Below, in pieces: positions 1,949 to 19,738 of a stretch of 25,002 nt of DNA (its first letter is position 1; the number at the start of each line of letters is the position of its first letter). The stretch comes from a virus. The position numbers and the translations under genes were made by a program. The stretch spans positions 1 through 25,002 of IMG/VR virus record IMGVR_UViG_3300044732_000842. The stretch is one strand, 5' to 3'. The notes under the pieces were generated by a model. That model was not told the DNA's origin. It worked only from the letters and a program-made list of their open reading frames with translations, and made no database searches.

Positions 1949-3130
1949 ATGACGCATGCTATAGATCAAATCCTTAATGAATATTATCAAAGAAGAACAT
2001 TGCGAGAAATAAATCGTCGAAATGATGAAATTCTAAGCAGTCTGTCCAAACAGATTGCACACAATGTATATCTCACACAGCGCCAGGCCGATCTTGCGTT
2101 GAAAATTTTCAAAGACAATCATCAACATTTTCCTAGCCTTCAGGGACTATTGGAAAATCCTGTATGGAGTCATGAATTTAGAACCATTGAATATTTCAAA
2201 TACCTACATCTAATTAAACCACCAACTCAAGATCGATATTTGTTGGAATTGGGCTTCAATCACAACAAGTCATTGTCAAAAAAATTAGATGAGTTAAAGA
2301 AACAAAGTTTAACAAATCCGTTGATCAGAATCAAAAATAATGTTTGGCAAATAGTGTATTGTGAAAAAGATCTATACAGTTTGGTCAATCTGGTGTCTGG
2401 TCATAATTTTGACATTTCACCTGAAATTTTGGAAGTTTACCAAGAAATTGACAATATCTTAAAAACTCCAAATCATGATCAAATCTATATTGATGTCAAC
2501 GGATCTGAATATTTGAAAAATTCAGTGGTGAACGACATTGGCACTTTAGACAAAACTAATATTTTGTTAGAGGACCGAAAAATCAAGTTTCAATATGAAA
2601 TTTTTGACAGTTTTTTCCAAAAAACACCAGCGGTGTCACTAGAGGAAAAAATTGCTGTTAGACCAACATCACAAGTTTACATTAGTCCTACAGATTTTTC
2701 ATTGACTGAAATTGTCAGTGCGTTGCAAAAATTGCAAAGATTTCCTACGTTGATAGTGTTTGACAACAACATCGAAAAATCCATGAAAATTCTGGAAAAA
2801 CTCAATACTGCATTAACTGTTAACAATGTTGTTGATTCGGTTGGAATCTATTTTAGATATGACAACGATAAAGACGGCAAACCTTTTAATGAGATGGTCA
2901 ACCAATTGGCCTATAACAAACCATTAAATAATAATACAGCCATAGTAGGCATTACCAACTGGAAAATTCCTAAATTTTTGCTAAAAATGCAGTGGCACCC
3001 ACGCAGTGTGATAGTGATGTCATCGGTGTTCGGTTCCAATCGGGTGAACCTATATACCAAGAGTTGTGACCTAGTTATTTTTCATCAAGACAAGAAACCC
3101 TTAACAGAGGCTATAAAAGAAATTGTGTAA
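1949..3130 (+). CDS. Unrecognised protein encoded upstream of uvsW
   Basis: The product is 393 residues from the ATG at 1949. A start at 1901 would give 409 residues, but the perfect -35/-10 pair lies between the two, so the 1901 start would be upstream of the transcript. I do not recognise the family. The first 60 residues are charged and helical (LTQRQADLALKIFKDNH resembles a helical linker seen in phage DNA-metabolism proteins). The C-terminal 150 residues alternate hydrophobic strands and helices (FPTLIVFDNN, NTAIVGITNWKIP, RSVIVMSSVFG, CDLVIFHQD), like a Rossmann or RecA-type alpha/beta fold, but without a Walker A motif. It overlaps the uvsW start by 8 nt, so coupling to recombination or replication is likely. 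No function is claimed. Confidence 0.8.
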   Translation: MTHAIDQILNEYYQRRTLREINRRNDEILSSLSKQIAHNVYLTQRQADLALKIFKDNHQHFPSLQGLLENPVWSHEFRTIEYFKYLHLIKPPTQDRYLLELGFNHNKSLSKKLDELKKQSLTNPLIRIKNNVWQIVYCEKDLYSLVNLVSGHNFDISPEILEVYQEIDNILKTPNHDQIYIDVNGSEYLKNSVVNDIGTLDKTNILLEDRKIKFQYEIFDSFFQKTPAVSLEEKIAVRPTSQVYISPTDFSLTEIVSALQKLQRFPTLIVFDNNIEKSMKILEKLNTALTVNNVVDSVGIYFRYDNDKDGKPFNEMVNQLAYNKPLNNNTAIVGITNWKIPKFLLKMQWHPRSVIVMSSVFGSNRVNLYTKSCDLVIFHQDKKPLTEAIKEIV

Positions 3131-4577
3131 ATTAATTATCAAAGACGAAGTTAATATCAAGATAGAAGGTCTCAGTTTAGAAATGAGACGAAAACTCAGT
3201 AACTCGTTCAAATACGAAATTCCCTATGCTAAATTCATGCCACGGTATCGGCTTGGCCGCTGGGACGGTACCACAACCTTGTTTGGGTTAGGCGGCAATG
3301 GATACTTGAATCAATTAGAAAAAGTGTTGCAAATTCTCGAAGACAGCAATGTCGAAGTTAGCGAAGTTGAAGATTTAAGAACACCTATAAATATTTCATT
3401 TCCTGTAATAAAAGAAGATTTTTGGGGAGAACTGTGCTGGCCTGTGGGGCATAGATTTGCAGGGCAACCAATTCGTTTGCGAGACGACCAAGTCGAAGTA
3501 GTCAGTAAATTTTTAGAAAATCCACAATGCCTACAAGAAATTGCCACCGGATTTGGCAAAACTATTATCACTGCCACTTTGGCCAAATGTTGCGAATCAT
3601 TTGGCAGAACTATCTGTATTGTGCCAAATAAAAGTCTTGTGGAGCAAACTGAAGAAGATTTTATTAACTGTGGGTTGGACGTGGGAGTATATTACGGTGA
3701 TCGTAAAGAACTAGGAAAAACACATACAATCTGCACTTGGCAAAGTCTAAATATTTTAGATAAAAAAAGTAAAAATGCTGAACGAGAAATTCTTACTCTT
3801 GCTGAATTTCTCGACGGAGTAAAAACTGTGATGGTTGACGAAGTACACATGGCCAAAGCCGAAGTACTGAAAAATTTACTCACACAGAATTTTTGTAATG
3901 CTCCGGTACGTTGGGGATTGACCGGCACTGTGCCTAAAGAAGATTTCGAAAGTCAAGCAATCTTTGCCAGCCTTGGTCCAGTAGTACATCGTATCCAAGC
4001 ACACGAATTGCAGGAAAAGGGAGTGTTGTCTAACTGTCATGTCAATGTGGTCCAACTGTTGGATTTGCCTGAGTTTAGATCCTATGCAGAAGAATTAAGT
4101 TATCTAGTCACTGACGAAGACCGCATGATTTATATCAGTAAACTGATTAAAAAAATTGCCGAATCTGGCAACACACTGGTGCTGGTAAATCGAATTGACT
4201 CTGGAAAATTTATTGTTAATGAATTGCCAGACAGTGTGTTTATTTCGGGCGCAGTAAAAACCAAAGATAGAAAAGAAGAATATGACGATGTTAAAACAAG
4301 TACTAACAAGGTTATTGTGGCGACTTATGGTGTGGCCGCTGTGGGTATTAATATTCCTCGTATTTTTAATCTGGTTCTTTTGGAGCCCGGAAAGAGCTTT
4401 GTCCGAGTTATACAAAGTATTGGGCGGGGCATTAGAAAAGCAGACGACAAAGACCATGTCATGATATGGGATATTACCAGTACATGCAAATACGCAAAGC
4501 GACACTTGACTGCTAGAAAAAAATTCTATAAAGACGCCAAGTATCCTTTTACACAAGAAAAAATTGATTGGAAATAA
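3123..4577 (+). CDS. uvsW: UvsW-like SF2 DNA/RNA helicase
   Basis: The product is 484 residues, close to T4 UvsW (about 500), a helicase that unwinds branched DNA and R-loops and helps switch from origin- to recombination-driven replication. Visible motifs are motif I ATGFGKT (141-147), motif II DEVH (239-242), motif III GLTGT (265-269) and motif VI QSIGRGIRK (about 431-439). The N-terminal block with RYRLGRWDGTTTLF (41-54) matches the UvsW N-terminal domain, where T4 has a similar NPRFRYGNWDG segment. The start is TTG at 3123, overlapping the previous stop by 8 nt; no ATG lies early enough to keep the N-terminal domain. It is preceded by an unrecognised protein and followed 1 nt later by a conserved phage protein. 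Confidence 0.93.
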   Translation: MCKLIIKDEVNIKIEGLSLEMRRKLSNSFKYEIPYAKFMPRYRLGRWDGTTTLFGLGGNGYLNQLEKVLQILEDSNVEVSEVEDLRTPINISFPVIKEDFWGELCWPVGHRFAGQPIRLRDDQVEVVSKFLENPQCLQEIATGFGKTIITATLAKCCESFGRTICIVPNKSLVEQTEEDFINCGLDVGVYYGDRKELGKTHTICTWQSLNILDKKSKNAEREILTLAEFLDGVKTVMVDEVHMAKAEVLKNLLTQNFCNAPVRWGLTGTVPKEDFESQAIFASLGPVVHRIQAHELQEKGVLSNCHVNVVQLLDLPEFRSYAEELSYLVTDEDRMIYISKLIKKIAESGNTLVLVNRIDSGKFIVNELPDSVFISGAVKTKDRKEEYDDVKTSTNKVIVATYGVAAVGINIPRIFNLVLLEPGKSFVRVIQSIGRGIRKADDKDHVMIWDITSTCKYAKRHLTARKKFYKDAKYPFTQEKIDWK

Positions 4578-4578
4578 C

Positions 4579-5085
4579 ATGTACATTTTAACATTAGATA
4601 ACAAAGGTTTTGATTTAAACAACCTACCAGAAGAAGTAGATGACGACATGCGATTCGCAGTGTTGGACAATAGTGACCCAAAAGAACCAGATTTCTTTTT
4701 TGTTCCTTTGATATTCTTAGAAAGTTTCAACAGTCCGGCTATGGTGTTGAGAATAGACAACCATGAAATTACCATGCCCATTGATTGGAGCATAGCAGTA
4801 GGTGACAGTCAAACAGGAGCAGACATTGAAGTGTTGCCACTGACTAGTTTAAATGATCGTGGATTTGAAGCATTTTGTTTTAACCCACTTAGCAGTTTTA
4901 AAATTGATTTTCGCAAAATCGAAATTGTAAATTTTTATAATGATGTTAAATGGTTTTTTCCCAAATTAAAAAACAATCATTTGTTGTCAGTGCCGTTACA
5001 CGAAGGTCCCAAACCGTCCTGTGTCTATTTTACAAAAGAGATAAGTAGACAGAGCGAAATAATTGACATGAGTAAAATATTATGA
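4579..5085 (+). CDS. Conserved T4-like phage hypothetical protein
   Basis: The product is 168 residues from the ATG at 4579, one base after the uvsW stop; the longer frame from TTG at 4564 would overlap uvsW and is less likely because a GGAA ribosome-site-like run sits just before the ATG. The sequence (EITMPIDWSIAVGDSQTGADIEVLPLTSLNDRGFEAF, then DVKWFFPKLKNNHLLSVPL and FTKEISRQSEII) fits, from memory, a conserved protein of marine T4-like phages with no assigned function. It is acidic, with no signal peptide or membrane segment. Its last codons overlap the cupin gene as ATGA, which ties the core genes to the sugar island. Confidence 0.85.
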   Translation: MYILTLDNKGFDLNNLPEEVDDDMRFAVLDNSDPKEPDFFFVPLIFLESFNSPAMVLRIDNHEITMPIDWSIAVGDSQTGADIEVLPLTSLNDRGFEAFCFNPLSSFKIDFRKIEIVNFYNDVKWFFPKLKNNHLLSVPLHEGPKPSCVYFTKEISRQSEIIDMSKIL

Positions 5086-5426
5086 AACAAGGTAAAATAT
5101 GGGGCCAAACAGAATTGTTAGAGGCCAACGGAGTATTAGAATTTCATCGAATCGAGGCCAAGGCGGGTGGTGTGTGTTCAAAACACAAACATGAATTTAA
5201 ATGGAACGGATTCTTTGTTGAATCTGGAGAGATGATCATTCGTGTTTGGAAAAATAATTATGACCTAGTGGATGAAACTGTATTGACTGCTGGGCAGTAT
5301 ACAAAAGTTGCACCCGGCGAATATCATCAGTTCGAATCTGTCACTGACTGTATAGCCTTTGAACTGTATTGGGCAGAATTTGATCACAACGATATAGAAA
5401 GAGAGACTGTGGGATTTAGTAAATGA
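5082..5426 (+). CDS. Small cupin-domain protein
   Basis: The product is 114 residues, the size of a single cupin barrel. The first cupin motif is seen in KAGGVCSKHKHEFKWNGFFVESGEM (residues 27-51), with His35, His37 and Glu50 as likely metal ligands or pocket residues; the second is PGEYHQFE (78-85) with His82. Cupins of this type often accompany nucleotide-sugar genes as 3,5- or 3,4-isomerases or as sensors. Here the protein is small and soluble and opens the sugar island, overlapping both neighbours as ATGA. A sugar-isomerase or sugar-binding role is inferred only from context; the fold is well supported. Confidence 0.85.
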   Translation: MKQGKIWGQTELLEANGVLEFHRIEAKAGGVCSKHKHEFKWNGFFVESGEMIIRVWKNNYDLVDETVLTAGQYTKVAPGEYHQFESVTDCIAFELYWAEFDHNDIERETVGFSK

Positions 5427-6367
5427 AAACCCGTATAGTTTATGTTACAGGCTGTCTAGGATTTATAGGAGTTCATATAACCCGACATTGTTTAAGTCTC
5501 GGTTGGTATGTTATCGGTGTAGATAAGATGACATATGCTAGTAATGAAACTTTTTTAACAGAATTTAAAAATTATCCAAATTTTAAATTTATTAAATCAG
5601 ACATAAATGACCTAGATATGTTATATGATTGTGATTATATTGTTAACACTGCCGCCGAAACTCATGTAGATAACTCAATCGAACGCAGTGATCATTTTGT
5701 GCATTCAAACATCGAAGGTGTTCATCACATTCTAAAACTAATTAATCAAAAACAAAAGCATAGAATTCCTGTACTATTGCATTTTAGTACCGACGAAGTT
5801 TACGGAGATATTTTAGAAGGTTCACACACTGAAACTGATCTATTAAAACCTAGTAATCCGTATTCGGCAACCAAGGCGGCCGCGGATATGTTGGTGCTAG
5901 CATGGAACAGAACTTATGGATTACCTTATGTAATTTTAAGGCCTACAAATAATTATGGCATAGGTCAATATGTTGAAAAATTAATCCCTAAAAGTGTAAA
6001 ATATTTGTCGGTCGGTCGTAAGATTGATCTACATAATAAAGGAACCCCGGTACGTACATGGTTACATGCGGAAGATACTGCCAGAGCTGTAATTACCATT
6101 ATTGAATCAGGTGTTACAAACGAAATTTTTAATATATCAGGCAATTACGAAGAAAAAAATATCGAAGTAGTTAAAAAGATTATTAAGTTAGTTAACGGTG
6201 ATACAGAAATTGAAAAATATTTGACTGATATGATTCGACCTGGCCAAGATTTAAGATATAGCATTGACGACACTAAATTAAAAAGTTTAGGTTGGTCAGC
6301 AAACGCAGATTTTGATACAGAGTTAGAAAAAGTTGTTAGGTACTATCAAAATAATTTTATTTGGTGA
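5423..6367 (+). CDS. rmlB: dTDP-glucose 4,6-dehydratase-like (RmlB-type SDR)
   Basis: The product is 314 residues, slightly shorter than usual RmlB (about 340-360). It has the NAD-binding GCLGFIG loop (10-16 region), the RmlB-type DKMTYASN stretch (34-41), the active-site STDEVYGD (122-129; Thr123, Asp124, Glu125) and YSATK (147-151; Tyr147, Lys151). The TDE triad is the form found in dTDP-glucose dehydratases and suggests a dTDP rather than CDP substrate. The reaction would give the 4-keto-6-deoxy sugar, the entry point for 6-deoxy and 3,6-dideoxy sugars. It is followed 3 nt later by an E1/RfbH-like dehydratase, the expected next step. Confidence 0.9.
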   Translation: MKTRIVYVTGCLGFIGVHITRHCLSLGWYVIGVDKMTYASNETFLTEFKNYPNFKFIKSDINDLDMLYDCDYIVNTAAETHVDNSIERSDHFVHSNIEGVHHILKLINQKQKHRIPVLLHFSTDEVYGDILEGSHTETDLLKPSNPYSATKAAADMLVLAWNRTYGLPYVILRPTNNYGIGQYVEKLIPKSVKYLSVGRKIDLHNKGTPVRTWLHAEDTARAVITIIESGVTNEIFNISGNYEEKNIEVVKKIIKLVNGDTEIEKYLTDMIRPGQDLRYSIDDTKLKSLGWSANADFDTELEKVVRYYQNNFIW

Positions 6368-6370
6368 TTT

Positions 6371-7690
6371 ATGAAAGAAATTTTAGAACAGATTCGCATT
6401 CTTATAGAACAAAAACAAGCAGAAAAGACATGGATAGCCAGTAAGGACTTTGTCAACTATGCCGGCCCATATTTTGATGCCAATGAATATGTAGCAGCGG
6501 CTGAAGCTCTACTCAACGGCTGGTTAGTTATGGGTAATAAGAGCTTGCAATTCGAAAAAACATTTCCTAGAGAATTTGGTAAGACTCGAGGTGTATTGAC
6601 TAATTCTGGAAGCAGTGCCAACTTGTTGATGATGGCTGCTATGAAATCGAAACGCGGCCATAATTTTCCACCTGGGACAAAAGTATTGATGCCTATTGCA
6701 GGGTTTCCAACTACACTCAATCCAACTATACAAAATGGCTTTACTCCTGTATTCTGTGACATTGAAATTGATACTTTAAACATCGATTTAACTCAGGCAG
6801 AACAGATACTTGCCAGTGACCCAGACATTAAAATTATAACGTTTGCTCATGTATTAGGGAATCCACCTAATATGGATAAAGTAATGGAACTGGTTAACAA
6901 ATACAACTTAATTCTATTAGAAGATTGTTGTGATGGACTAGGCACTACCTATGATAGCAAGCCGTTGGGATCGTTTGGCGAAATGGCATCGTGCTCTTTT
7001 TATCCAGCACACCATATGACAATGGGCGAAGGTGGCTTTGTTGCCATGAACGATCCTCAACAAGAAATTATTGTGCGTAGTTTGCGCGAATGGGGCCGCG
7101 GATGTTACTGTGTTGGTCCAGAAGCAAACAAGTTAAAGTGCGGTACTTGTGGCAAACGCTTTAACGAGTGGATTCCGGAGATGCCGGGTGAAATATTTGA
7201 TCACAAATATGTATACGATGAAATTGGTTACAACCTAAAGCCAATTGAACTGCAGGCCGCAATGGGTCTTGAACAGATTAAAAAACTTCCAGAGATTCAT
7301 GCCTTGCGTCAACGCAATTACAATCTATTGTTTGCTATCTATGAAAAGTATGAAGAGTTTTTCCACTTGCCTAGAGCCAGAGAAAAAGCAGATGTCAGTT
7401 GGTTTGCTTTTCCTTTGACTATCCGTGAAGGTGCTCCATTTACTCGTATGGATATAGTTGATTACTTAGAAGAAAATCTAATTCAAACTCGTCCTTATTT
7501 TGCGGGCAATATTATGTTGCAACCTGCATATTCTCATTTAATGAATCCTGCAGATGCCCGTGATAACTATCCTATAGCAACCTACACTATGAAGAATACT
7601 TTCTTTCATGGTTGTAGTCCGGTAATTACTCCAGACCAAATATCTTACATAGGTGAGAAAGTTGATGGGTTTATGAGTTTATTTGTATAA
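6371..7690 (+). CDS. rfbH: RfbH/E1-type PLP-dependent 3-dehydratase (DegT fold, His in place of Lys)
   Basis: The product is 439 residues, the usual size for RfbH/E1. The fold is DegT/DnrJ/EryC1, but the PLP-lysine position is occupied by histidine: SFYPAHHMTMGEGG (209-222; His214 aligns with the aminotransferase Lys). This is the hallmark of C-3 dehydratases that make 3-deoxy sugars instead of amino sugars. Cys187, Cys245 and Cys247 give C-x57-C-x-C spacing, and Cys257/Cys260 follow. This is close to the [2Fe-2S] cysteine pattern reported for Yersinia E1 (C-x57-C-x-C-x7-C). So a 4-keto-3,6-dideoxy product is likely. E1 needs a reductase (E3); none is visible here, so a host reductase or a gene outside the window would be needed. 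Confidence 0.9.
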   Translation: MKEILEQIRILIEQKQAEKTWIASKDFVNYAGPYFDANEYVAAAEALLNGWLVMGNKSLQFEKTFPREFGKTRGVLTNSGSSANLLMMAAMKSKRGHNFPPGTKVLMPIAGFPTTLNPTIQNGFTPVFCDIEIDTLNIDLTQAEQILASDPDIKIITFAHVLGNPPNMDKVMELVNKYNLILLEDCCDGLGTTYDSKPLGSFGEMASCSFYPAHHMTMGEGGFVAMNDPQQEIIVRSLREWGRGCYCVGPEANKLKCGTCGKRFNEWIPEMPGEIFDHKYVYDEIGYNLKPIELQAAMGLEQIKKLPEIHALRQRNYNLLFAIYEKYEEFFHLPRAREKADVSWFAFPLTIREGAPFTRMDIVDYLEENLIQTRPYFAGNIMLQPAYSHLMNPADARDNYPIATYTMKNTFFHGCSPVITPDQISYIGEKVDGFMSLFV

Positions 7691-7700
7691 AGAGAGAAAA

Positions 7701-8804
7701 ATGATTTCACAAAAAGATAGAGATTTATTTGAAAATTTGTTTGTCCTAGAGGCAGCAAATAATCATTGGGGCAAATTAGACCGTGGTCTTAAAATTATTC
7801 GCGATCATGCGGCAGTTATTAAATTTAACAATGTTAAGGCCGCAATTAAACTACAATTTAGAGATGTAGACGAATTTATTCATCCTGAGTTTAAGGGTAA
7901 TCAAGAAAATCGTTATATTAAGAAAACCGAAGCTACTAAACTTAGCAAAGCAGATTTTGCTCGGATGATTGAAGAAATTCGAAATGTAAGCTGTATTCCG
8001 ATGGCAACACCGTTTGATGAAAAGAGTGTTGACCTGTGCGTTGAGTTTAACATGCCAATTATCAAACTGGCTAGTTCGGATGTTAATGACTGGGTATTGA
8101 TTGATAAAATTGCATCAACCCGTCGTCCTGTTATTGCTAGTACAGGTGGCGCAAGTGAAAAAGATCTTGATGATCTAGTTCGTTATTTTGAAAAGCGTAA
8201 TATTCCACTTGCAATCAATCATTGCATTTCTTTGTATCCGTCAGAAGACGATATCCTACAGTTAGATCAAATTGATTATCTAAAAGCACGTTATCCAGAT
8301 CATGTTGTCGGTCTAAGTACACACGAATATCACGATTGGCATTCAAGTATGCTTCTCAGTTATGGTAAAGGTGCTAGAACTTGGGAACGCCATGTGGACA
8401 TTAACTATGAAGGTGTGCCAGTTTCAAACTACTGCTCATTACCAGAACAATGTGATCAATGGTTTAAAGCATTTCATAAAGCCAAAGAAATGTGCGGAGG
8501 CAATAGTACATCACGCCGTGTTATTACACGAAGCGAAACAGAATACCTTGACGCATTAGTCCGCGGGGCATACGCAAAAAAAGATCTTCCAGAAGGTTAT
8601 GTTTTTACCAAAGAAGGTTTCTTAAAGGATTTCTATTTGTCAATCCCATTAAAAAAAGGTCAGTTGAGTTGCAGAGAAATTATAAATGGTGAAACTTTGA
8701 TTAAATCAATTAAAGCAGACAATCCATTAACTATTAATGACATCAACGGTCCGTACAATGAAAACGAATCGTTAAGGAACTTGATACTACATCGTGGTTT
8801 ATAA
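7701..8804 (+). CDS. NeuB-like sialic-acid/nonulosonate synthase-family protein
   Basis: The product is 367 residues, the normal NeuB length. I chose the ATG at 7701 (AGAGAG run 4 nt upstream) over the TTG at 7683, which lies inside the previous gene. The NeuB barrel is seen in LEAANNHWGKL (near the start), KLQFRD, IPMATPFDEKSVD, IKLASSDVNDW, PVIASTGGAS and CISLYPS, then GLSTHE and WERHVDI. These fit a PEP-condensing TIM barrel, and the last 85 residues look like the SAF/antifreeze domain that closes the NeuB dimer. The family condenses PEP with an aldose to a nonulosonate-type acid. No NeuC, NeuA or PseB relatives are nearby, so the substrate is unclear; it may act on a product of the neighbouring genes. 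Confidence 0.88.
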   Translation: MISQKDRDLFENLFVLEAANNHWGKLDRGLKIIRDHAAVIKFNNVKAAIKLQFRDVDEFIHPEFKGNQENRYIKKTEATKLSKADFARMIEEIRNVSCIPMATPFDEKSVDLCVEFNMPIIKLASSDVNDWVLIDKIASTRRPVIASTGGASEKDLDDLVRYFEKRNIPLAINHCISLYPSEDDILQLDQIDYLKARYPDHVVGLSTHEYHDWHSSMLLSYGKGARTWERHVDINYEGVPVSNYCSLPEQCDQWFKAFHKAKEMCGGNSTSRRVITRSETEYLDALVRGAYAKKDLPEGYVFTKEGFLKDFYLSIPLKKGQLSCREIINGETLIKSIKADNPLTINDINGPYNENESLRNLILHRGL

Positions 8805-9448
8805 TGTCTGTAAAACTTGTGGTATATGATCTAGACGGCACACTAATAGATTCTGCACCCTCAACCATTTATGTACTAAATCAACTTCGTCAAGAATTGG
8901 GCAGAGCCCCTCTTCCTAATTCTGCATTTGTGCCTTGGTTAAGTTTAGGTGGTACTAGTTTAATTTCTAACTCTTTAGAATTTGAAGATGAAGGCACTGC
9001 TAAGATTTATCTACAAGAATTTCGCAAAAGGTTAAGAAAACTTGAACTAGGTCATATACCTTTGTATAAAAATGTAGACCAAACTTTATCTTTACTGTAT
9101 AATAGTAATATTAAATTGTCTATTTGTACAAGCAAGGTACGTGACCTAACTGACAAGATACTTCACGAATTAAACATAAGTTCGTATTTTTCGTATGTTG
9201 TTGCAGGGGGTGATTTACTAACTACAAAACCAGACCCTAGAAATTTATTGGCCTGTTGCGATAATTTAAATATTAGCAAGCAGGACACAATATTTGTAGG
9301 CGACAGCACAGTCGATCGAGCAACTGCTAAAAACGCAGATGTTAAATTTGCCTTATTTGAGGGCGGATACAATGATGGTGTAGACACAACTGGTATAACA
9401 ACATTTAGCGATCATTTAGAATTAGCAAATAAGGTATTAAATGGATAA
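8804..9448 (+). CDS. HAD-family phosphatase (phosphoglycolate phosphatase-like)
   Basis: The product is 214 residues. HAD motif I is DLDGTLIDS (9-17; Asp9 nucleophile, Asp11), motif II is in LSICTSK, motif III is the Lys in TTKPDPRN and motif IV is FVGDSTVDRATAKNA. The helical cap between motif I and II is that of the Gph/beta-phosphoglucomutase subgroup. Beside NeuB it is a natural candidate for the 9-phosphate phosphatase step of nonulosonate synthesis (NanP-like), or for removing phosphate from another sugar phosphate. The start overlaps the previous stop by one base (TAATG) and the end overlaps the TPP enzyme by 8 nt. Confidence 0.88.
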   Translation: MSVKLVVYDLDGTLIDSAPSTIYVLNQLRQELGRAPLPNSAFVPWLSLGGTSLISNSLEFEDEGTAKIYLQEFRKRLRKLELGHIPLYKNVDQTLSLLYNSNIKLSICTSKVRDLTDKILHELNISSYFSYVVAGGDLLTTKPDPRNLLACCDNLNISKQDTIFVGDSTVDRATAKNADVKFALFEGGYNDGVDTTGITTFSDHLELANKVLNG

Positions 9449-11240
9449 TAAGAAAATTAGAGTATCGAAACAAATTGCAGACTGGTTAGTTAAACACGGT
9501 ATTGAGCAAGTTTTTTCTGTAACTGGTGGCGGGTCAATGTTTTTGAACTACGACCTTGGCTCTCATCCAAAACTAAAATGTACATTTATGCATCATGAAC
9601 AAGCATGTGCTATGGCTGCAGAAGGGTATGCTAGAATAACTGGTAAACCTGCGCTTGTTATGGTAACTACTGGTCCAGGTCCCATCAATGCTATGAACGG
9701 AGTATACGGTGCGTTTACAGACTCTATTCCAATGATAGTAATTTCAGGACAAATTAAAAGAGATACGTGTGTGTCATTCTACGATTTACCCAATCTTAGA
9801 CAATTAGGTGATCAAGAAGGTCCGACTATTGCTATGGTATCTCCAATATGTAAATACGCAAAATTAGTTAGAGAATCTTCGGATCTAAAAACTATGTTAC
9901 CCGAAGCATACGCTCAAGCCATTGGTGGCCGCCCTGGGCCTGTTTGGTTAGACATACCTTTAGATATACAAAATTCTATAGAAGAATTAAATATTCCTTC
10001 ATACTGCCCAATAGCAGATCCCCAGGAAACAGATCTTCGTAAAGAATGTCAGATATTAATTGAAAAATTAAAATCTAGCAAACGACCTTTAATACTAGGT
10101 GGGACCGGGGTTCGTTTGGCAGGAGCCAAAGATAGGTTACTTGCATTAATAGAAAGACTAGGCATCCCGTTGTCAACTGCATGGACACATGATTTGATTC
10201 GTTCTAATCATCCGTTGTTTGCCGGCCGCCCCGGAGCAATCGGAACTAGGGCTGGCAATTTTTGTCTTCAGGGCTCGGATTTTGTACTTGTATTAGGATC
10301 TAGATTAAATATTCGTCAGACCGGATACAACTGGAATGCGTTTGCTCAAGATGCATGGTTGGCGCAAGTTGATGTTGATCCTGCTGAATTAGGTAAGCCA
10401 ACTATTAGACCAGACCAGCCTATTGTAGCAGATATTAATCAATTTCTAGATTGTTTTGAAACTATGATATTAGAAACAAAATTACCTAGTTATAACAAAT
10501 GGGCAGTATGGTGTAGAGATATCGGTAACAAATATGCAGCCATTAACGATCATTCTCAAATACCGGGCGCCCCTCTAAATCCATACATTGTTGTTGACCG
10601 CATTTTTCAACAATTAAGAGATAATGATATAATTGCCTGTGGCAACGCATCTGCTTGTATACTACCCTTTCAGGTAGGGAACTTAAAATCAGAACAACGA
10701 TTGTTTAGTAATTCAGGTTCGGCATCAATGGGATACGATCTTCCTGCGGCAATTGGATCTTCTGTAGCAGATAAAGGACGTGTGATTTGTTTTGCTGGGG
10801 ATGGTAGTTTACAAATGAACATTCAAGAATTACAAACATTAAAAACTGCTGGCACTAATCTTATTGTGGTGGTCTTGAATAATAAAGGATACCTATCTAT
10901 AAAACAAACACACGAAAATTTCTTTGGAAAGATCATTGGGGCAACTCCGGAGTCTGGTGTAGACTTTCCTGACTTTGCCGCAGTAGCAGAGGCATATGGT
11001 ATAAAGTCAGCAACTATAAGTAATGAACAAGATCTTACAACACTAGATGATCTTATTCAAAGTAACGGTCCGCTTTTAATTAATATTATGGTAGACCCTG
11101 ATCAAAGTTTTGCTCCTAGAATGAAAGCTAGATTAGATGACAATGGTAACTTTATACCGCAGTACCTTGATGACATGTTTCCATTTTTAGATCCTCAAGA
11201 AATTAAATCAGTAAGAGAATCCGCAAAGACTATAAAATGA
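9441..11240 (+). CDS. TPP-dependent acetolactate-synthase-like enzyme (candidate YerE-type)
   Basis: The product is 599 residues with the three-domain layout of acetolactate synthases. The catalytic glutamate is Glu53 in HHEQACAMAAEGYARI, the N-terminal loop VTTGPGPINAMNGVYGA is typical, and the TPP/Mg site is GDGSLQMNIQEL through LNNKGY (about residues 450-480). Amino-acid ALS normally sits with ilv genes; here it lies inside a sugar operon. The closest functional parallel I know is YerE, the TPP/flavin enzyme that transfers a two-carbon unit from pyruvate to the C-4 keto group of a 3,6-dideoxy sugar in yersiniose synthesis. That role fits the preceding RmlB and RfbH genes but is inferred from context; plain acetolactate synthesis or another carboligation is possible. 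Confidence 0.9.
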   Translation: MDNKKIRVSKQIADWLVKHGIEQVFSVTGGGSMFLNYDLGSHPKLKCTFMHHEQACAMAAEGYARITGKPALVMVTTGPGPINAMNGVYGAFTDSIPMIVISGQIKRDTCVSFYDLPNLRQLGDQEGPTIAMVSPICKYAKLVRESSDLKTMLPEAYAQAIGGRPGPVWLDIPLDIQNSIEELNIPSYCPIADPQETDLRKECQILIEKLKSSKRPLILGGTGVRLAGAKDRLLALIERLGIPLSTAWTHDLIRSNHPLFAGRPGAIGTRAGNFCLQGSDFVLVLGSRLNIRQTGYNWNAFAQDAWLAQVDVDPAELGKPTIRPDQPIVADINQFLDCFETMILETKLPSYNKWAVWCRDIGNKYAAINDHSQIPGAPLNPYIVVDRIFQQLRDNDIIACGNASACILPFQVGNLKSEQRLFSNSGSASMGYDLPAAIGSSVADKGRVICFAGDGSLQMNIQELQTLKTAGTNLIVVVLNNKGYLSIKQTHENFFGKIIGATPESGVDFPDFAAVAEAYGIKSATISNEQDLTTLDDLIQSNGPLLINIMVDPDQSFAPRMKARLDDNGNFIPQYLDDMFPFLDPQEIKSVRESAKTIK

Positions 11241-12313
11241 ATTTTGAATTTTTAGGTGAACAATGTAATAATATTGAAGTTTGTAACTTAGATCACAGAC
11301 CAGTTTGGATATTTGGTACAGGTACATTCGGTCGTTCACTTGCTAAAATATTGTTAGAAGAAGGATTTGATCTACAGGGATTTGTAGAAACTAATCCAAC
11401 AACAGATAGCATCATGGGGTTATCTGTTAAATCACTAATTGATGTTCCTAATACAACGCAATTAGCTATAGGAATTTTTAATGGGGGTGTGCCATTTAGT
11501 AATCTAAAAAAACAGGCTAACGATTTAGGGTTTACAGACATTTATATGCCTTGGAATCTTTATACACAATTTCAAAAAAAATTAGGTTGGAGATATTGGT
11601 TGAGCCATCCAGATGTAATTATTAAAAATCTCGATCGCATACAAACAGTATATGATTTATTATCTGATGAACGCAGTAAACAATGCCTAATTGATATTTG
11701 TTTGTTTAGACTGGGAAAGAAGATTTCATATGCAGAAGATGTAGACACCGATGCTCAGTATTTTAATTATCTAACGTTAGATAATCTTCCAAAAGAAATT
11801 GTTTATCTAGACGGTGGAGCATATGATGGCGATACATATTTAGATCTAAGCAATAGACTTACCGTTAAACATGCTTATCTCTTTGAACCAGACCCTGCTA
11901 ATTTTAGCAAATTAATTAAAAATGTTGAGAATCATTCTTTAACATGTATGCCAATGGCATTAACAGATTCCTACAAGATTTTAAGATTTAACGCAGCCGG
12001 CGGCGAAGGCAGTTCAGTATCAGATGATGGAAAAATGCATATAGCGGCAGTAGCACTTGACGAATTGTTACATAACCAATCTGTTGACTTTATTAAACTT
12101 GATGTAGAGGGTTCTGAAATAAGTGCCATCAAAGGTGCTTACAATACTATCAAACAGAATAGACCGGTACTAACTATATCGCTATATCATAAGCCAGATG
12201 ACCTATGGGAGATTCCTTTAGAATTATTATCTGTATGTACTGATTATAAATTTTATATAAGACAACACTACTATAATAGTTTTGACTGTGTATTGTATGG
12301 GATCCCAACATGA
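11237..12313 (+). CDS. FkbM methyltransferase with N-terminal Rossmann-like domain
   Basis: The product is 358 residues, longer than a lone FkbM domain. The N-terminus (RPVWIFGTGTFGRSLAKILL, residues 21-40) is a GxGxxG-type nucleotide-binding unit with a following FVETNP strand, similar to the small sugar-O-acyltransferase/PglD-like or NAD-binding modules fused to glycan enzymes. The C-terminal half carries SAM motif I VYLDGGAYDGDTYLDL (189-204), AYLFEPD and VDFIKLDVEGSEISAIKG, clear FkbM signatures. It probably O-methylates the sugar made by the cluster. It overlaps the TPP gene and the SDR gene by 4 nt each (ATGA). Confidence 0.85.
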   Translation: MNFEFLGEQCNNIEVCNLDHRPVWIFGTGTFGRSLAKILLEEGFDLQGFVETNPTTDSIMGLSVKSLIDVPNTTQLAIGIFNGGVPFSNLKKQANDLGFTDIYMPWNLYTQFQKKLGWRYWLSHPDVIIKNLDRIQTVYDLLSDERSKQCLIDICLFRLGKKISYAEDVDTDAQYFNYLTLDNLPKEIVYLDGGAYDGDTYLDLSNRLTVKHAYLFEPDPANFSKLIKNVENHSLTCMPMALTDSYKILRFNAAGGEGSSVSDDGKMHIAAVALDELLHNQSVDFIKLDVEGSEISAIKGAYNTIKQNRPVLTISLYHKPDDLWEIPLELLSVCTDYKFYIRQHYYNSFDCVLYGIPT

Positions 12314-13128
12314 AAATAGCAGTATTAGGAGCCAAGGGATTTGTTGGGTCATCAATAGTAGGAAACCTATCTAACAAACACGAGGTTGTTCCAGTTTCCA
12401 GAGAAACATTAAATTTGTTGGATACCGTTAAAGTAGTCGAATTTCTCAAAACAAATAAATTTGATGTTGTTGTTAATGCCGCTGCCACAATGGCAGATCC
12501 TAATGGAATAAAAGATACGTGGAATAATCTCGGTATGTTTATGAATTTTTATAATAACTCGGATTTGTTTGGCAAATTTATTAATATGGCTTCTGGGGCT
12601 GAGTATGACAGATCCAGAGATATATGCAAGGCCAAAGAATTGGAGATATTTGATCGAATACCAACGGACAGTTACGGGTTTGGTCAAAACTTAAAAAGTC
12701 GGTTATGTTACGATCGCAATAATTTTTTTACAATAAGAATTTTTAATTGTTTCGGACAAGGTGAAATCCCTACTAGAGTTTTTCCAAAATTCCTATCTAA
12801 AGGAAATCAAAAATTACAGATCACCGATGATAGATTTTTTGATTACTTTAGTGTTCAAGATTTACTGAAGATAGTTAATCACTGTATTGACAACACGTGG
12901 GCAGTTAAGGATGTTAATGCAGTATATAAAGAAAAGTTTAAGATTAGTCAGGTGTTATCTATGTTTTGCGAGTTGAATAACATTAGTCCAGATTTTGAAA
13001 TTGTGTCTCATGGTACAAACAATTATACAGGTGATAACAATAATTTAGCATCTCTAGAAATTAAATTAAATGGCATGAAACACGGATTATCAACATACAT
13101 AAAGGAAACTAATAATGTACACTATTGA
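12310..13128 (+). CDS. NAD-dependent epimerase/reductase-like SDR with altered active site
   Basis: The product is 272 residues, an extended-SDR size. The nucleotide-binding loop is VLGAKGFVGSS (5-15), and VVNAAATMADP and INMASGAEYDRS follow as in RmlD/epimerase proteins. The usual catalytic YxxxK is replaced: the segment reads DSYGFGQN, so the position of the Lys holds Gln, with a Lys three residues later. The enzyme may therefore use a shifted Lys or have lost catalysis while still binding a nucleotide sugar. In a yersiniose-like pathway a reductase is needed after the TPP step (YerF in Yersinia), and this is the only candidate in the cluster. It overlaps the following gene by 14 nt. Confidence 0.82.
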   Translation: MKIAVLGAKGFVGSSIVGNLSNKHEVVPVSRETLNLLDTVKVVEFLKTNKFDVVVNAAATMADPNGIKDTWNNLGMFMNFYNNSDLFGKFINMASGAEYDRSRDICKAKELEIFDRIPTDSYGFGQNLKSRLCYDRNNFFTIRIFNCFGQGEIPTRVFPKFLSKGNQKLQITDDRFFDYFSVQDLLKIVNHCIDNTWAVKDVNAVYKEKFKISQVLSMFCELNNISPDFEIVSHGTNNYTGDNNNLASLEIKLNGMKHGLSTYIKETNNVHY

Positions 13129-13900
13129 TCACTGTGCAGGGTGCGGGTCAACTAATGTTTCTAAAAAAACTGCGTATCTATCTCAATTTGTTTCGTGGAG
13201 AACAACAGGAAATAAACCGATGATTAATATGCCCAACTTGTTAGTTACCTGTAATGATTGCGGATTCTCAGCTTCTCGAATTCGTTTTACTAATGAAGAA
13301 GAAGCAAACTTATATAAAGACTACAGGGGTGAAAAATACAATAGGATGAGATTAGAGTGCGAACCAAAGTATGAAACTAGTTCTATTTTTAATACAAATT
13401 ATATTAACGATAGATTAGAGTTTATTACAGAAATGATTGGACGAAACATTGACTCTAATAAAATAAATTCAGTATTAGATTATGGTGGGGGTGCTGGAGA
13501 ACTAATTCCTCCAGCGTTCACAAAAGCCATTAAATATGTTTACGATATTAGTGGTGTAGAACCCTTAGACGGAATTAAAAAATTAAATCCAACAATTGAT
13601 AAAGATCCTATGGATTTTATCATGTGCTGTCAGGTACTAGAACATAAATCGGATATGGATGAATTAATTAATATTTTAAAATCATACATGGTTACAGACA
13701 GCTGGATTTATATAGAGGTTCCGGTATATAGGAATCCTCCGCCAGATGATGTTATAATAGGGGAGCATATAAACTTTTTTAACGAACAATCGCTTGTAGC
13801 AATATTAGATAGACACGGTATATGTGCAATAGATACTACAAAAAATTATATGTTAGGGGCAATGGCTGTATTAGGAAAATTTAATTCAAAAAGCTGTTAG
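13115..13900 (+). CDS. SAM methyltransferase with N-terminal zinc ribbon
   Basis: The product is 261 residues. Two CxxC pairs (Cys7/Cys10 and Cys46/Cys49) form a zinc ribbon at the N-terminus, as in sugar C-methyltransferases and related class I enzymes. SAM motif I is VLDYGGGAGEL (120-130) and a post-motif with MCCQVLEHKSDMDELIN (about 170-186) is typical of Methyltransf_12-like folds. Full sugar C-methyltransferases (about 400 residues) have an extra C-terminal domain, which is absent. Methylation of a nucleotide sugar or glycan is inferred from position. It is the last gene of the coupled run that began at 5082. Confidence 0.83.
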   Translation: MYTIDHCAGCGSTNVSKKTAYLSQFVSWRTTGNKPMINMPNLLVTCNDCGFSASRIRFTNEEEANLYKDYRGEKYNRMRLECEPKYETSSIFNTNYINDRLEFITEMIGRNIDSNKINSVLDYGGGAGELIPPAFTKAIKYVYDISGVEPLDGIKKLNPTIDKDPMDFIMCCQVLEHKSDMDELINILKSYMVTDSWIYIEVPVYRNPPPDDVIIGEHINFFNEQSLVAILDRHGICAIDTTKNYMLGAMAVLGKFNSKSC

Positions 13901-13943: not shown

Positions 13944-14642
13944 ATGATACCATTAAATTTAAAAAACAAAATAAACAAACACGGGTTTATGTTAGCCTGT
14001 GATACTGTATACCTCAATAATTGGACTAAACCTTTATTTTTTTCAATTCAAAAATACTGTCCCTGGGCTCACATACATATTCATGTGTTTGATCCAACTC
14101 CTTCAGACATTGTCTGGCTTTCTTCTCATAACTGCTCGTACTCGACAGAAAATACTCCTTCTGAATTTACCGACTGGGCATCAAAAGGATTGTATTGGTC
14201 AGTAGCTCGGTATGCTAGAGTTTTAGAAATTTATACAGACGATACTCTAGTTATTGATTTAGATGTTGATAGTGTTGTAGTTAACCCCATTCCTCAAACA
14301 GAATTTCTTAAAGATTTAGAATCAAGTTGGGTTCCCACAAGACTTAAAGGTGGACAAATAAAAAGTTTAGCTAGTGCAGTAGGATTTGGAGCAGATCGAA
14401 CAAGATACATATTGGCCGAATTATTAATGGATGCATACAAAAATAATAAATTAGTATTTGCCGCGGATCAAGCAATACTAAATGGTATGATTGGAAGAAA
14501 CGAAATTAAAAAAATGGATTTAAGATATACTGATTATAAATTTGGTAAAAACGGAGTTTCTTATATCTGGACCGGAAAAGGCGACAGAGTTAAAGAGCCT
14601 AAATTTGTTAAAATGATTGATCAATATAGACATATGAAATAA
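13944..14642 (+). CDS. Glycosyltransferase-like protein (GT-A, DxD)
   Basis: The product is 232 residues from the ATG at 13944, six bases after the late-promoter box; an internal Met16 is a weaker alternative. The sequence opens with GFMLACDTVYLNNWTKPLFFSI, the first strand and helix of a GT-A fold, and TLVIDLDVDSVVVNPI (101-116) carries a DxDxD run (Asp105, Asp107, Asp109) as the nucleotide-sugar/metal motif. AADQAILNGMI near residue 175 matches the acceptor-side DQ..N motif of related GT8/GT77-like proteins. With its own late promoter it is likely expressed with virion genes, so it may glycosylate a virion protein or attach the cluster sugar. Donor unknown. Confidence 0.8.
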   Translation: MIPLNLKNKINKHGFMLACDTVYLNNWTKPLFFSIQKYCPWAHIHIHVFDPTPSDIVWLSSHNCSYSTENTPSEFTDWASKGLYWSVARYARVLEIYTDDTLVIDLDVDSVVVNPIPQTEFLKDLESSWVPTRLKGGQIKSLASAVGFGADRTRYILAELLMDAYKNNKLVFAADQAILNGMIGRNEIKKMDLRYTDYKFGKNGVSYIWTGKGDRVKEPKFVKMIDQYRHMK

Positions 14643-15625: not shown

Positions 15626-16330
15626 ATGTTAAAATTGTTAGATCAACCAGTTAGTCAACTGTATGTGTGTGAACACTGCGGAACCAAGTTTACCAAAGAA
15701 AAAACTCTGGTTGTGCATATGTGCGAGCAAAAACGTAGATATCTTGCCAAGGATGAAAAACATGTTATCTTAGGATATACGGTATACAATCGATTCTATA
15801 GACTAACACAAAAACAAAAGCATGACAAAACATATTTAGAGTTTGCCAAGAGCCCCTATTACAATGCATTTGTAAAATTTGGCAGTTTCATGCACAATGT
15901 TAATCCTCTGTATCCAGATCAATACATTGACTTCGTGGTAATCAGCGGTGTCAAACTGGATCATTGGTGTAGAGAAGAATTGTATGAAAAATTTGTACTG
16001 CATCTAATTAAAACAGAATCGGTAGAGATTGCCTTAGAGAGATCTATTGATACCATGTCAAAGTGGGCTGTAGAAAACAATGCTGTATGGAATCATTATT
16101 TCAATTACATCAGCCCCAGCAGAGCCATGTTTAATATTAAAGATGGAAAGATATCTCCATGGCTGTTGTTGAACTGCAATTCTGGTAGAAATTTATTAAA
16201 TACATTTAATGACGAACAATTGGCAGCAGTAGCAACAATGATTGATCCACCGTTCTGGAAGAAAAAGTTTCGTGATAAAAAGTTCGACATGGAACTGATT
16301 ACGCAGGTAGTCAAGGAGTCAAATTTATAA
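15626..16330 (+). CDS. Zinc-finger protein conserved in T4-like phages
   Basis: The product is 234 residues. Cys15, Cys18, His31 and Cys33 (CEHC...VHMCEQ) make a C2HC zinc finger at the N-terminus, which suggests nucleic-acid or protein binding. The rest (SPYYNAFVKFGSFMHNVNPLYP, SGVKLDHWC, YISPSRAMFNIKDGKISPWLLLNC, MIDPPFWKKKF) fits, from memory, a conserved marine T4-like phage family of unknown function. The A of its TAA stop is the first base of the ATG of the polymerase-III-like gene, so the two are translated together and may act together in DNA metabolism. An AAGG lies only 1 nt before the ATG, an unusually short spacing. Confidence 0.85.
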   Translation: MLKLLDQPVSQLYVCEHCGTKFTKEKTLVVHMCEQKRRYLAKDEKHVILGYTVYNRFYRLTQKQKHDKTYLEFAKSPYYNAFVKFGSFMHNVNPLYPDQYIDFVVISGVKLDHWCREELYEKFVLHLIKTESVEIALERSIDTMSKWAVENNAVWNHYFNYISPSRAMFNIKDGKISPWLLLNCNSGRNLLNTFNDEQLAAVATMIDPPFWKKKFRDKKFDMELITQVVKESNL

Positions 16331-18060: not shown

Positions 18061-19041
18061 ATGAGTCTTATCTTAGAAACCGTACAACAACATTTACCGG
18101 CAAAGCGAAAATCAACCCCTAGTGGGTGGATCAGTTTCAATGCGGTGTGCTGTCATCACAATGGCACCAGTGCTGACAATAGACAGCGTGGCGGCATCAT
18201 GTTGAATGAAGGAGTCAGTTATCATTGTTTCAACTGTGGATTTAAATCTAGTTGGCAACCTGGCCGACACGTCAGTGTAAAGTTTAAAAAACTTCTGCGA
18301 TGGTTGAATGTTTCTGACAGTGACATCAATAAGTGCATGTTAGATGCTCTGAGACGTCACGAAGGTATCGAAGACACTGGAATTAAAAATCCAATTCCTA
18401 CCTTTATAGACAAAGCATTGCCCAGAGGCGCTGAACCCATCGTAAGTTATCTGGATAATCCTCCTGCTGAACTAATGCCAGTATTGCAGTATCTAACTGA
18501 GAGAAAACTGTATTTGGAGGATTATGACTTTTACTGGACAGATGAAGATGGATTCCAAAATAGATTAATTATTCCCTTTTACTTTCAAAATCGTATTGTG
18601 GGATACACTGCTAGAAAAATCACAGAAGGCAAACCCAAATACATCAGTGAACAACAGCCGGGGTATGTGTTTAATTTGGATCAACAAGGTCTCGATCAAA
18701 AGTTTGTCATAGTTGTAGAAGGACCAATTGATGCAATCTGTATCAAAGGTGTGGCCTTGACCAGCGCCGAAGTTGGAGACAGTCAGCGAGCGTTGATCAA
18801 TCGATTACAGCGTCAAGTGATAGTGTTGCCTGATCGAGATCAAGCCGGATGTCGTTTGATAGATCAGGCATTGGAGTTCGGGTGGAGTGTGAGTTTTCCC
18901 GAGTGGGGAGACGATGTCAAAGATGTAAATGATGCTGTGAAAAAATTCGGCAGACTATATACATTGTGGAGCATTGTGCATCACTGTGAGAGCAATGCTC
19001 TTAAAATACAATTGAGGATGAAAAAATGGTTAGTAAAATAA
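18061..19041 (+). CDS. 61: DNA primase (T4 gp61-like)
   Basis: The product is 326 residues, close to T4 gp61 (342), the DnaG-type primase that makes RNA primers with the gp41 helicase. The N-terminal zinc ribbon uses Cys/His residues at 30-33 (CCHH) and Cys56/Cys59 (HCFNCG). The TOPRIM domain shows FVIVVEGPIDAI (215-226; catalytic Glu220) and VIVLPDRDQAG (253-263; Asp258, Asp260). The middle segment NRLIIPFYFQNRIVGYTARKI is the DnaG-family basic region before TOPRIM. It lies under its own sigma70-like promoter. Its end overlaps a 38-residue gene, and the helicase gene is about 1.7 kb downstream on the same strand. Confidence 0.93.
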   Translation: MSLILETVQQHLPAKRKSTPSGWISFNAVCCHHNGTSADNRQRGGIMLNEGVSYHCFNCGFKSSWQPGRHVSVKFKKLLRWLNVSDSDINKCMLDALRRHEGIEDTGIKNPIPTFIDKALPRGAEPIVSYLDNPPAELMPVLQYLTERKLYLEDYDFYWTDEDGFQNRLIIPFYFQNRIVGYTARKITEGKPKYISEQQPGYVFNLDQQGLDQKFVIVVEGPIDAICIKGVALTSAEVGDSQRALINRLQRQVIVLPDRDQAGCRLIDQALEFGWSVSFPEWGDDVKDVNDAVKKFGRLYTLWSIVHHCESNALKIQLRMKKWLVK

Positions 19042-19142: not shown

Positions 19143-19738
19143 CCATACTAGCAGTAGGATGTAGTTTTTTATGCGATAGATCTGAGGTGCGGCCCCAGTG
19201 TGCTGTCATGGCCGAACGACTTGATCAGCCGCTGGACAATCGCAGTATCCCCGGCAACGGAAACACACACATCCTGTACAACACAATGACAGCCATAATC
19301 GAAAATCCCAACAAGTATTCCTTGGTTTTAATCGGATGGAGCAATCCTGGTAGATGGGATTTTGTAACTGCTCCACACAAGTGGTTTGCCTTAAAGATGG
19401 GTAACGTCATAGGAACAGCCACTGATAAAAAAATAAATTTTGAATTAACATTATTTAAACATTGGGCTCCTCAAGTGCTTTTGTTATCTTCTTGGCTGAG
19501 ATCGAGAAACATTCCTTTTATAATGTGGAACAGTTTAGAATGTTGGTTAGAAGGAGAAAGCACGTTACATAAAGAAATTTTGTCTATACCCGAATTTTAT
19601 AAACCAAAAATAAATCATATTGCTGATCTAAGAGAAAGAGAACAATGGATTTCAAATGATGATCATCATCCAAATCAACAGAGTCATGATCTGTGGGCTC
19701 AAGAATTATTAGACTTTAATAGGACTTTATATAAATGA
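19139..19738 (+). CDS. SGNH/GDSL-hydrolase-like protein
   Basis: The product is 199 residues. Block I is VGCSF (6-10; nucleophile Ser9), a GNGNTH stretch near 39-44 supplies the block II/III Gly and Asn, and NDDHHPNQQSHDLWAQEL (173-190) carries the DxxH of block V (Asp174, His177). That is the SGNH esterase layout, used by carbohydrate deacetylases and acyl esterases. There is no signal peptide. It lies between primase and carbamoyltransferase, overlapping both neighbours by 4 nt, so it is in the same coupled string. Removal or transfer of an acyl group on a phage or host glycan is the likely role, inferred from the fold. Confidence 0.82.
   Translation: MTILAVGCSFLCDRSEVRPQCAVMAERLDQPLDNRSIPGNGNTHILYNTMTAIIENPNKYSLVLIGWSNPGRWDFVTAPHKWFALKMGNVIGTATDKKINFELTLFKHWAPQVLLLSSWLRSRNIPFIMWNSLECWLEGESTLHKEILSIPEFYKPKINHIADLREREQWISNDDHHPNQQSHDLWAQELLDFNRTLYK

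Follow-up and report, generated by a model that had tools for sequence, protein, structure and literature searches.

A phage-encoded candidate pathway for a C-4-branched 3,6-dideoxy sugar, with a NeuB-type enzyme as proposed maker of the branch donor

Why should a virus keep an enzyme resembling acetolactate synthase (ALS) among genes for glycan synthesis? The question is raised by the IMG/VR virus record IMGVR_UViG_3300044732_000842, a 25,002-base fragment that was analysed as a whole and is called the window here. From 5082 to 13900, nine co-directional genes on the plus strand follow one another with intergenic gaps of -14 to +10 bp. They encode, in this order, a small cupin protein, an RmlB-type nucleotide-sugar 4,6-dehydratase, an RfbH/E1 3-dehydrase, a NeuB-fold synthase, a HAD-family phosphatase, the ALS-like enzyme, which depends on thiamine diphosphate (ThDP), an FkbM-domain protein, a short-chain dehydrogenase/reductase (SDR) and a methyltransferase. 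An earlier reading made from the letters alone (the sequence-only reading) had described the genes between 5423 and 13128 as a coupled operon for a yersiniose-like branched sugar, and their positions, common direction and tight spacing are confirmed. As for the sugar, the C-4-branched 3,6-dideoxy part of that proposal stands, but a two-carbon branch drawn from pyruvate is not supported, given the linkage of the ThDP gene to NeuB and the exchange of NeuB for aldolases. With a probability of roughly 60%, the phage pathway leads to a nucleotide-linked 3,6-dideoxyhexose that carries at C-4 a long and probably hydroxylated branch.

The first step is the identity of the ThDP enzyme (9441..11240, 599 amino acids, three Pfam ThDP domains). 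Its best sequence match in the PDB is JanthE (8rph, 322 bits), described as YerE-like (PMC12188165), versus 240 bits or less for acetohydroxyacid synthases (AHAS). An AlphaFold model with a mean predicted local distance difference test (pLDDT) score of 91.6 also retrieved JanthE first in a fold search (E 1.3e-53), the best AHAS following at 3.6e-44. JanthE, from Janthinobacterium sp. HH01 (PDB 8rph/8rpi/8rpj), is the closest solved structure. The two enzymes have the same fold and a common C-terminal region beyond the IlvB alignment, but they are 32% identical, and the window enzyme has GDG for CDG, Asp124 for Val121, Arg292 for Pro293 and Ile267 for Tyr268. A tree of 122 rows was built by a quick method, with PoxB as outgroup and some long branches flagged. 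In this tree, the window enzyme falls in a clade of 22 rows, 18 from bacteria and four from viruses, all of them NeuB-linked (Shimodaira-Hasegawa-like approximate likelihood ratio test, SH-aLRT, 100), and JanthE and all others are separate from IlvB, IlvI and Gcl (SH-aLRT 98). The enzyme has kept its catalytic Glu53 as well as the GDG...N motif. The Trp of IlvI, which we take to be the equivalent of W464 in E. coli AHAS II (own numbering), is replaced by Thr490, IlvB also being without this Trp. The AHAS Phe, located at V121 of JanthE, is replaced by Asp124, which is invariant in 50 bacterial NeuB-linked rows. Furthermore, the curated ALS cut-off is missed by far (TIGR00118, 325 bits vs 538). 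Assignment as a YerE-like carboligase, and not as a housekeeping IlvB, is well supported by these comparisons. The sequence-only reading had already argued against an amino-acid-type ALS, and the phylogeny it called for, run with JanthE as the YerE-like reference, gave no clustering with IlvB.

YerE-like enzymes are, according to PMC12247030, the only subclass of the decarboxylase superfamily known to couple to isolated ketones. Because the ThDP enzyme groups with them and its bacterial relatives sit in cytidine diphosphate (CDP)-3,6-dideoxyhexose clusters, its predicted function is best read as the branching, at C-4, of a 4-keto-3,6-dideoxy sugar. Such an acceptor could be provided by the two enzymes encoded upstream. 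The RmlB-type dehydratase (5423..6367) carries the STDEVYG and YSATK motifs, and its nearest PDB entries are deoxythymidine diphosphate (dTDP)-glucose 4,6-dehydratases (2hun, 259 bits). It scores 312 bits with TIGR01181 versus 70 bits with the CDP-type TIGR02622, in line with the earlier view of a dTDP- rather than CDP-type enzyme; its substrate is probably dTDP-glucose. The E1/RfbH-type 3-dehydrase (6371..7690), of the family dependent on pyridoxamine phosphate and a [2Fe-2S] cluster, exceeds the NCBIfam RfbH cut-off (432.9 vs 423) and matches the PDB E1 entry 3bcx with 328 bits. The His and cysteine marks of C-3 deoxygenation ascribed to it are indeed there: equivalents of the four Fe-S cysteines C193, C251, C253 and C261 and of the catalytic His H220 were all found. 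His220 is kept in 116/116 aligned RfbH relatives of viral loci, so the 3-deoxygenation step appears conserved even with a differing enzyme type; the four cysteines are complete in 84 of these relatives, and the set is missing, as in ColD, in 32. ColD-like 3-dehydrases, with the His kept and the Fe-S cysteines gone, replace E1 in viral loci L068-L082 and others.

The second step concerns the NeuB-fold, phosphoenolpyruvate-dependent synthase (7701..8804, Pfam NeuB E 1.6e-33). It shares the fold and the metal-binding His pair (aligned with His208 and His231) with the NeuB/PseI/SpsE synthases, but it belongs to a subfamily of its own, usually without a cytidine monophosphate (CMP)-sugar synthetase on the contig and linked to a ThDP carboligase. 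Its closest PDB entry is the structural genomics entry 3g8r (197 bits), true NeuB and PseI scoring about 70 bits, and the NeuB and PseI equivalog models give 99 and 103 bits against cut-offs of 400 and 340. The CMP-sugar synthetase family (PF02348) was found on 1/44 viral NeuB/ThDP contigs versus 4/4 contigs with an ordinary NeuB (Fisher p 2.6e-5), in a comparison whose rows are not fully independent, which includes several fragments and to which the window does not belong. An ordinary sialic or pseudaminic acid synthase is ruled out by the equivalog scores and the mostly missing CMP-synthetase. Cultured phages yielded no close NeuB relative, one match at 24% identity being the only one.

NeuB scans turned up 61 viral and 80 bacterial loci. 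Among the 56 viral loci with at least 50% NeuB identity, the ThDP gene is present in 54 and lies no more than 150 bp from NeuB in 52 (median gap 6 bp); the remaining two loci end just after NeuB. The same pair recurs in 74 of the 80 bacterial loci, where RfbF (53), RfbG (51) and RfbH (52) neighbours are those of the predicted CDP-3,6-dideoxyhexose route and half of the loci (40/80) have an FkbM match. In bacterial locus L209, for instance, the order is RfbF, RfbG, RfbH, a flavin-reductase-like gene, SDR, methyltransferase, ThDP enzyme and NeuB. In a second bacterial lineage (L246-L249, L251), a NeuB relative immediately precedes a ThDP gene that is most similar to JanthE. The core genes are under purifying selection: compared with locus L004, the ratio of nonsynonymous to synonymous substitution rates (dN/dS) is 0.04 for RmlB, 0.04 for RfbH, 0.05 for NeuB, 0.13 for the ThDP gene and 0.16 for the SDR. 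Since the gene set recurs over dozens of viral fragments and many bacteria and its core is under such selection, it is not a chance assembly.

The third step is what NeuB does there. Around 87 distinct viral ThDP genes, the donor-side neighbour is NeuB (within two genes) in 48 cases, an HpcH/HpaI aldolase (family 30) in eight, an HMGL/TIGR03217-like protein (family 66, best equivalog 4-hydroxy-2-oxovalerate aldolase) in five, PfpI and/or a family-32 protein in ten, and none of these in 16. NeuB never stands together with another donor maker (0/87). In the 122-row tree, the HpcH-linked ThDP clade is nested among the NeuB-linked enzymes, and bacterial locus L254 holds RfbH, HpcH, SDR, AroB-like and ThDP genes together. 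The product class common to NeuB, HpcH/HpaI and HMGL-type aldolases, as predicted from their families, is that of the 4-hydroxy-2-oxo acids. These are also the donors preferred by the YerE-like enzymes ErwE (erwiniose) and MMAR_2332 (caryophyllose), as reported in PMC12247030; the idea of NeuB as a donor maker came from this preference and preceded the family scans. ErwE and MMAR_2332 are likened to the phage enzyme by description, not by sequence, and the available text of PMC12247030 mentions no NeuB-type donor maker for them. Because NeuB nearly always accompanies the ThDP gene and gives way, in related cassettes, to aldolases making 4-hydroxy-2-oxo acids, a donor that is longer and hydroxylated, as for erwiniose or caryophyllose, is favoured: NeuB would supply the keto-acid donor of the ThDP enzyme, and the product would have a long branch and not be yersiniose. 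NeuB and the HAD gene do lie interleaved with the sugar genes, as had been described, but neither is likely to be a bystander, and NeuB proves to belong to the module. We lean slightly towards a widespread modular family in phages and bacteria, with a core of 4,6-dehydratase, 3-dehydrase, YerE-like ThDP enzyme and SDR and with swappable makers of 2-oxo acids, in which NeuB would serve the carboligase as donor maker and not make sialic acid, and phages would build higher-carbon branched sugars.

In the proposed pathway, RmlB would convert dTDP-glucose of the host into a 4-keto-6-deoxy sugar, which RfbH/E1 would deoxygenate at C-3, electron donors of the host taking the place of E3. NeuB, working in the direction of synthesis, would make a 4-hydroxy-2-oxo acid from phosphoenolpyruvate and a small aldehyde that is probably phosphorylated. 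The HAD enzyme (8804..9448; HAD_2 E 2e-34, phosphoglycolate-phosphatase-like) may strip the phosphate from this donor; its gene is missing between NeuB and the ThDP gene in L004-L006. The YerE-like enzyme would then decarboxylate the acid and transfer the acyl unit onto the C-4 ketone, giving a tertiary alcohol. Finally, the SDR and the methyltransferases would tailor the branched sugar, which would be used for glycosylation of the host surface or the virion. The yersiniose A pathway of Yersinia (YerE, YerF, RfbF/RfbG/E1/E3) has in common with it a 4,6-dehydratase, an E1 3-dehydrase, a YerE-like carboligase, an SDR and the predicted acceptor, a nucleoside diphosphate-linked 4-keto-3,6-dideoxyhexose. 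In contrast to Yersinia, the phage has an RmlB-type instead of a CDP-type dehydratase, no E3 or cytidylyltransferase is recognised in its region, and NeuB (with HAD) is tied to the ThDP gene, so that the donor is probably not pyruvate.

Several observations weigh against the long-branch pathway. The RmlB-type dehydratase misses the TIGR01181 cut-off (312 vs 365 bits), as NeuB misses both of its equivalog cut-offs, and the SDR has Y-x3-Q and not the usual catalytic Y-x3-K. Neither an E3 reductase nor a nucleotidyltransferase, cytidylyltransferases included, was recognised by Pfam or NCBIfam among the scanned proteins of the region, as the sequence-only reading had noted, the window being a fragment; in addition, the one E3-like query used matched just 2/80 bacterial NeuB loci. 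JanthE, at 32% identity, is the sole YerE-family reference and stands in for YerE and ErwE. The 87 viral ThDP genes are not independent, since many are relatives of one another, and NeuB or ThDP queries were used to collect both the viral and the bacterial set. Ten viral cassettes have PfpI and/or the family-32 protein, and 16 have no recognised donor maker. Lastly, the ThDP enzyme still has Arg292 of the AHAS 'DDR' motif, a position held by Arg or Lys in most of its clade and by Pro in JanthE. In AHAS, this Arg contacts the acceptor keto acid, and a keto-acid acceptor therefore fits as well.

Three other explanations were considered. A yersiniose-type pathway, with pyruvate as donor, a two-carbon acetyl branch, and NeuB and HAD making a separate nonulosonic-type acid, matches the enzyme types of the window, and nine JanthE-like phage enzymes whose cassettes hold no recognised donor maker (L067-L072, L075, L081, L082; 42-45% identical to JanthE) could take host pyruvate; five ThDP enzymes without a donor maker group with JanthE in the tree. 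It is nevertheless unlikely for the window, given that NeuB is nearly always linked to this ThDP clade, never co-occurs with the alternative aldolases and lacks its CMP-synthetase partner on 43/44 viral contigs. Somewhat less probable still is an AHAS-like variant, in which pyruvate is the donor and the 2-keto acid made by NeuB the acceptor, giving a C-2-branched ulosonic acid, and the 3,6-dideoxy sugar is made independently of it. The Arg or Lys at the Arg292 acceptor site of most NeuB-linked enzymes, where JanthE has Pro, would suit it, but the acceptor-side Trp and Phe are replaced (Thr490, Asp124), the structure most like it is that of a carboligase that accepts ketones, and in phages and bacteria alike the cassette regularly accompanies genes for 4-keto-3,6-dideoxy sugars. 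A housekeeping ALS, present as an auxiliary metabolic gene of branched-chain amino acid synthesis and lying beside glycan genes by accident, is highly improbable: the top NCBIfam names are ALS, all far under cut-off, but tree, fold and key residues rule out a housekeeping IlvB, no regulatory-subunit gene is recognised alongside, and the gene is linked to RfbH, RmlB and NeuB across many contigs and phyla.

The core of the cassette is of a known kind, that of yersiniose, erwiniose and caryophyllose branching. As far as the literature searched shows, three things are new: the wide occurrence of the core in viral contigs, a dehydratase of the dTDP type and the proposed role of NeuB as donor maker. 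Nothing was found in that literature on a link between NeuB and YerE-like enzymes, although NeuB may be mentioned in a survey, cited in PMC12247030, that covers more than 200 YerE-like clusters. For the vast majority of the YerE-like enzymes predicted in bacterial clusters, the sugar structure is not known, according to the same paper. If the long-branch pathway is correct, there would be a testable reason for the NeuB-type gene in YerE-like clusters, and the neighbouring gene would predict the donor class. Phages would moreover carry rare branched-sugar pathways, presumably remodelling host surface glycans or their own virions. Automatic labels such as 'sialic acid synthase' and 'acetolactate synthase' mislead for the NeuB and ThDP genes of such cassettes. 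In searches with the ThDP protein, no match from cultured phages reached 60% identity, the best having 31.8%, and many were labelled as bacterial ALS or resembled it; plasmids gave matches to ALS alone.

The RmlD/epimerase-like SDR (12310..13128) has a weak family match (Pfam Epimerase E 4e-13), and its family is present in 116 loci; about 20 relatives with a recognised motif likewise carry a non-Lys residue. A function as branch-ketone reductase, corresponding to YerF, or as epimerase is proposed. The S-adenosylmethionine-dependent methyltransferase (13115..13900, Methyltransf_23, Pfam E 6.5e-13), with relatives in 26 loci of the viral set, is a probable sugar-tailoring enzyme. The FkbM methyltransferase domain (Pfam Methyltransf_21 E 2e-15) occupies the C-terminal half of the protein at 11237..12313. 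Both are under looser constraint against L004 (dN/dS 0.45 for FkbM and 0.51 for the methyltransferase). In the same comparison, the synonymous rate is about 2 for NeuB but just 0.14 for the ThDP gene, and the cassette is therefore a recombination mosaic. The role of the cupin (5082..5426; Pfam Cupin_2 E 9e-6, slightly below cut-off), which opens the coupled run, is uncertain. It stands alone, whereas a NeuB with a fused C-terminal cupin lies directly upstream of the ThDP gene in the two scanned loci of the second bacterial lineage, L246 (7388-8893) and L249 (6814-8337). The genomes of these two loci belong to the same order as that of the Acidovorax locus L147, and the adjoining ThDP gene matches JanthE best among the queries. 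After the methyltransferase, the protein at 13944..14642 (plus strand), without Pfam or NCBIfam match and retained in L002-L004, is possibly a glycosyltransferase judging from sequence and place; the proposed pathway does not need it.

As to the source, the sugar region is flanked by phage replication genes, with a UvsW-like helicase (3123-4577) on one side and, on the other, a DNA primase (18061-19041) followed by a DnaB-like helicase (20704-22194). The source is probably a jumbo phage, because the nearby protein at 15626-16330 is related, at about 30-39% identity, to proteins of large phages such as Salicola phage SCTP-2, PA5oct and Atu_ph07. Of the 33 contigs searched in turn for capsid, terminase, portal and sheath families, only G008, G037 and G040 gave matches, so that the viral origin of many others rests on the call of IMG/VR.

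Related cassettes contain further genes. DJ-1/PfpI and the weakly cupin-like family 32 precede the ThDP gene in L021, L022, L024-L026, L029, L030, L054 and L080. In L009, L049, L057, L103-L106 and others, NeuB and the ThDP gene are followed by an AroB-like putative cyclase (TIGR04425, under cut-off), a FabG-like SDR and an uncharacterised protein. These cassettes may make a carbocyclic branch, for which caryose and bradyrhizose are parallels. In L006 (1542-6892), TRAP-transporter-like genes (three open reading frames, recognised from sequence), a second ThDP enzyme (35% identity) and its own SDR come before the NeuB/ThDP cassette. Within the window itself, a Nol-like carbamoyltransferase (PHROG 1601) at 19735-20685 is another possible glycan-modifying phage gene.

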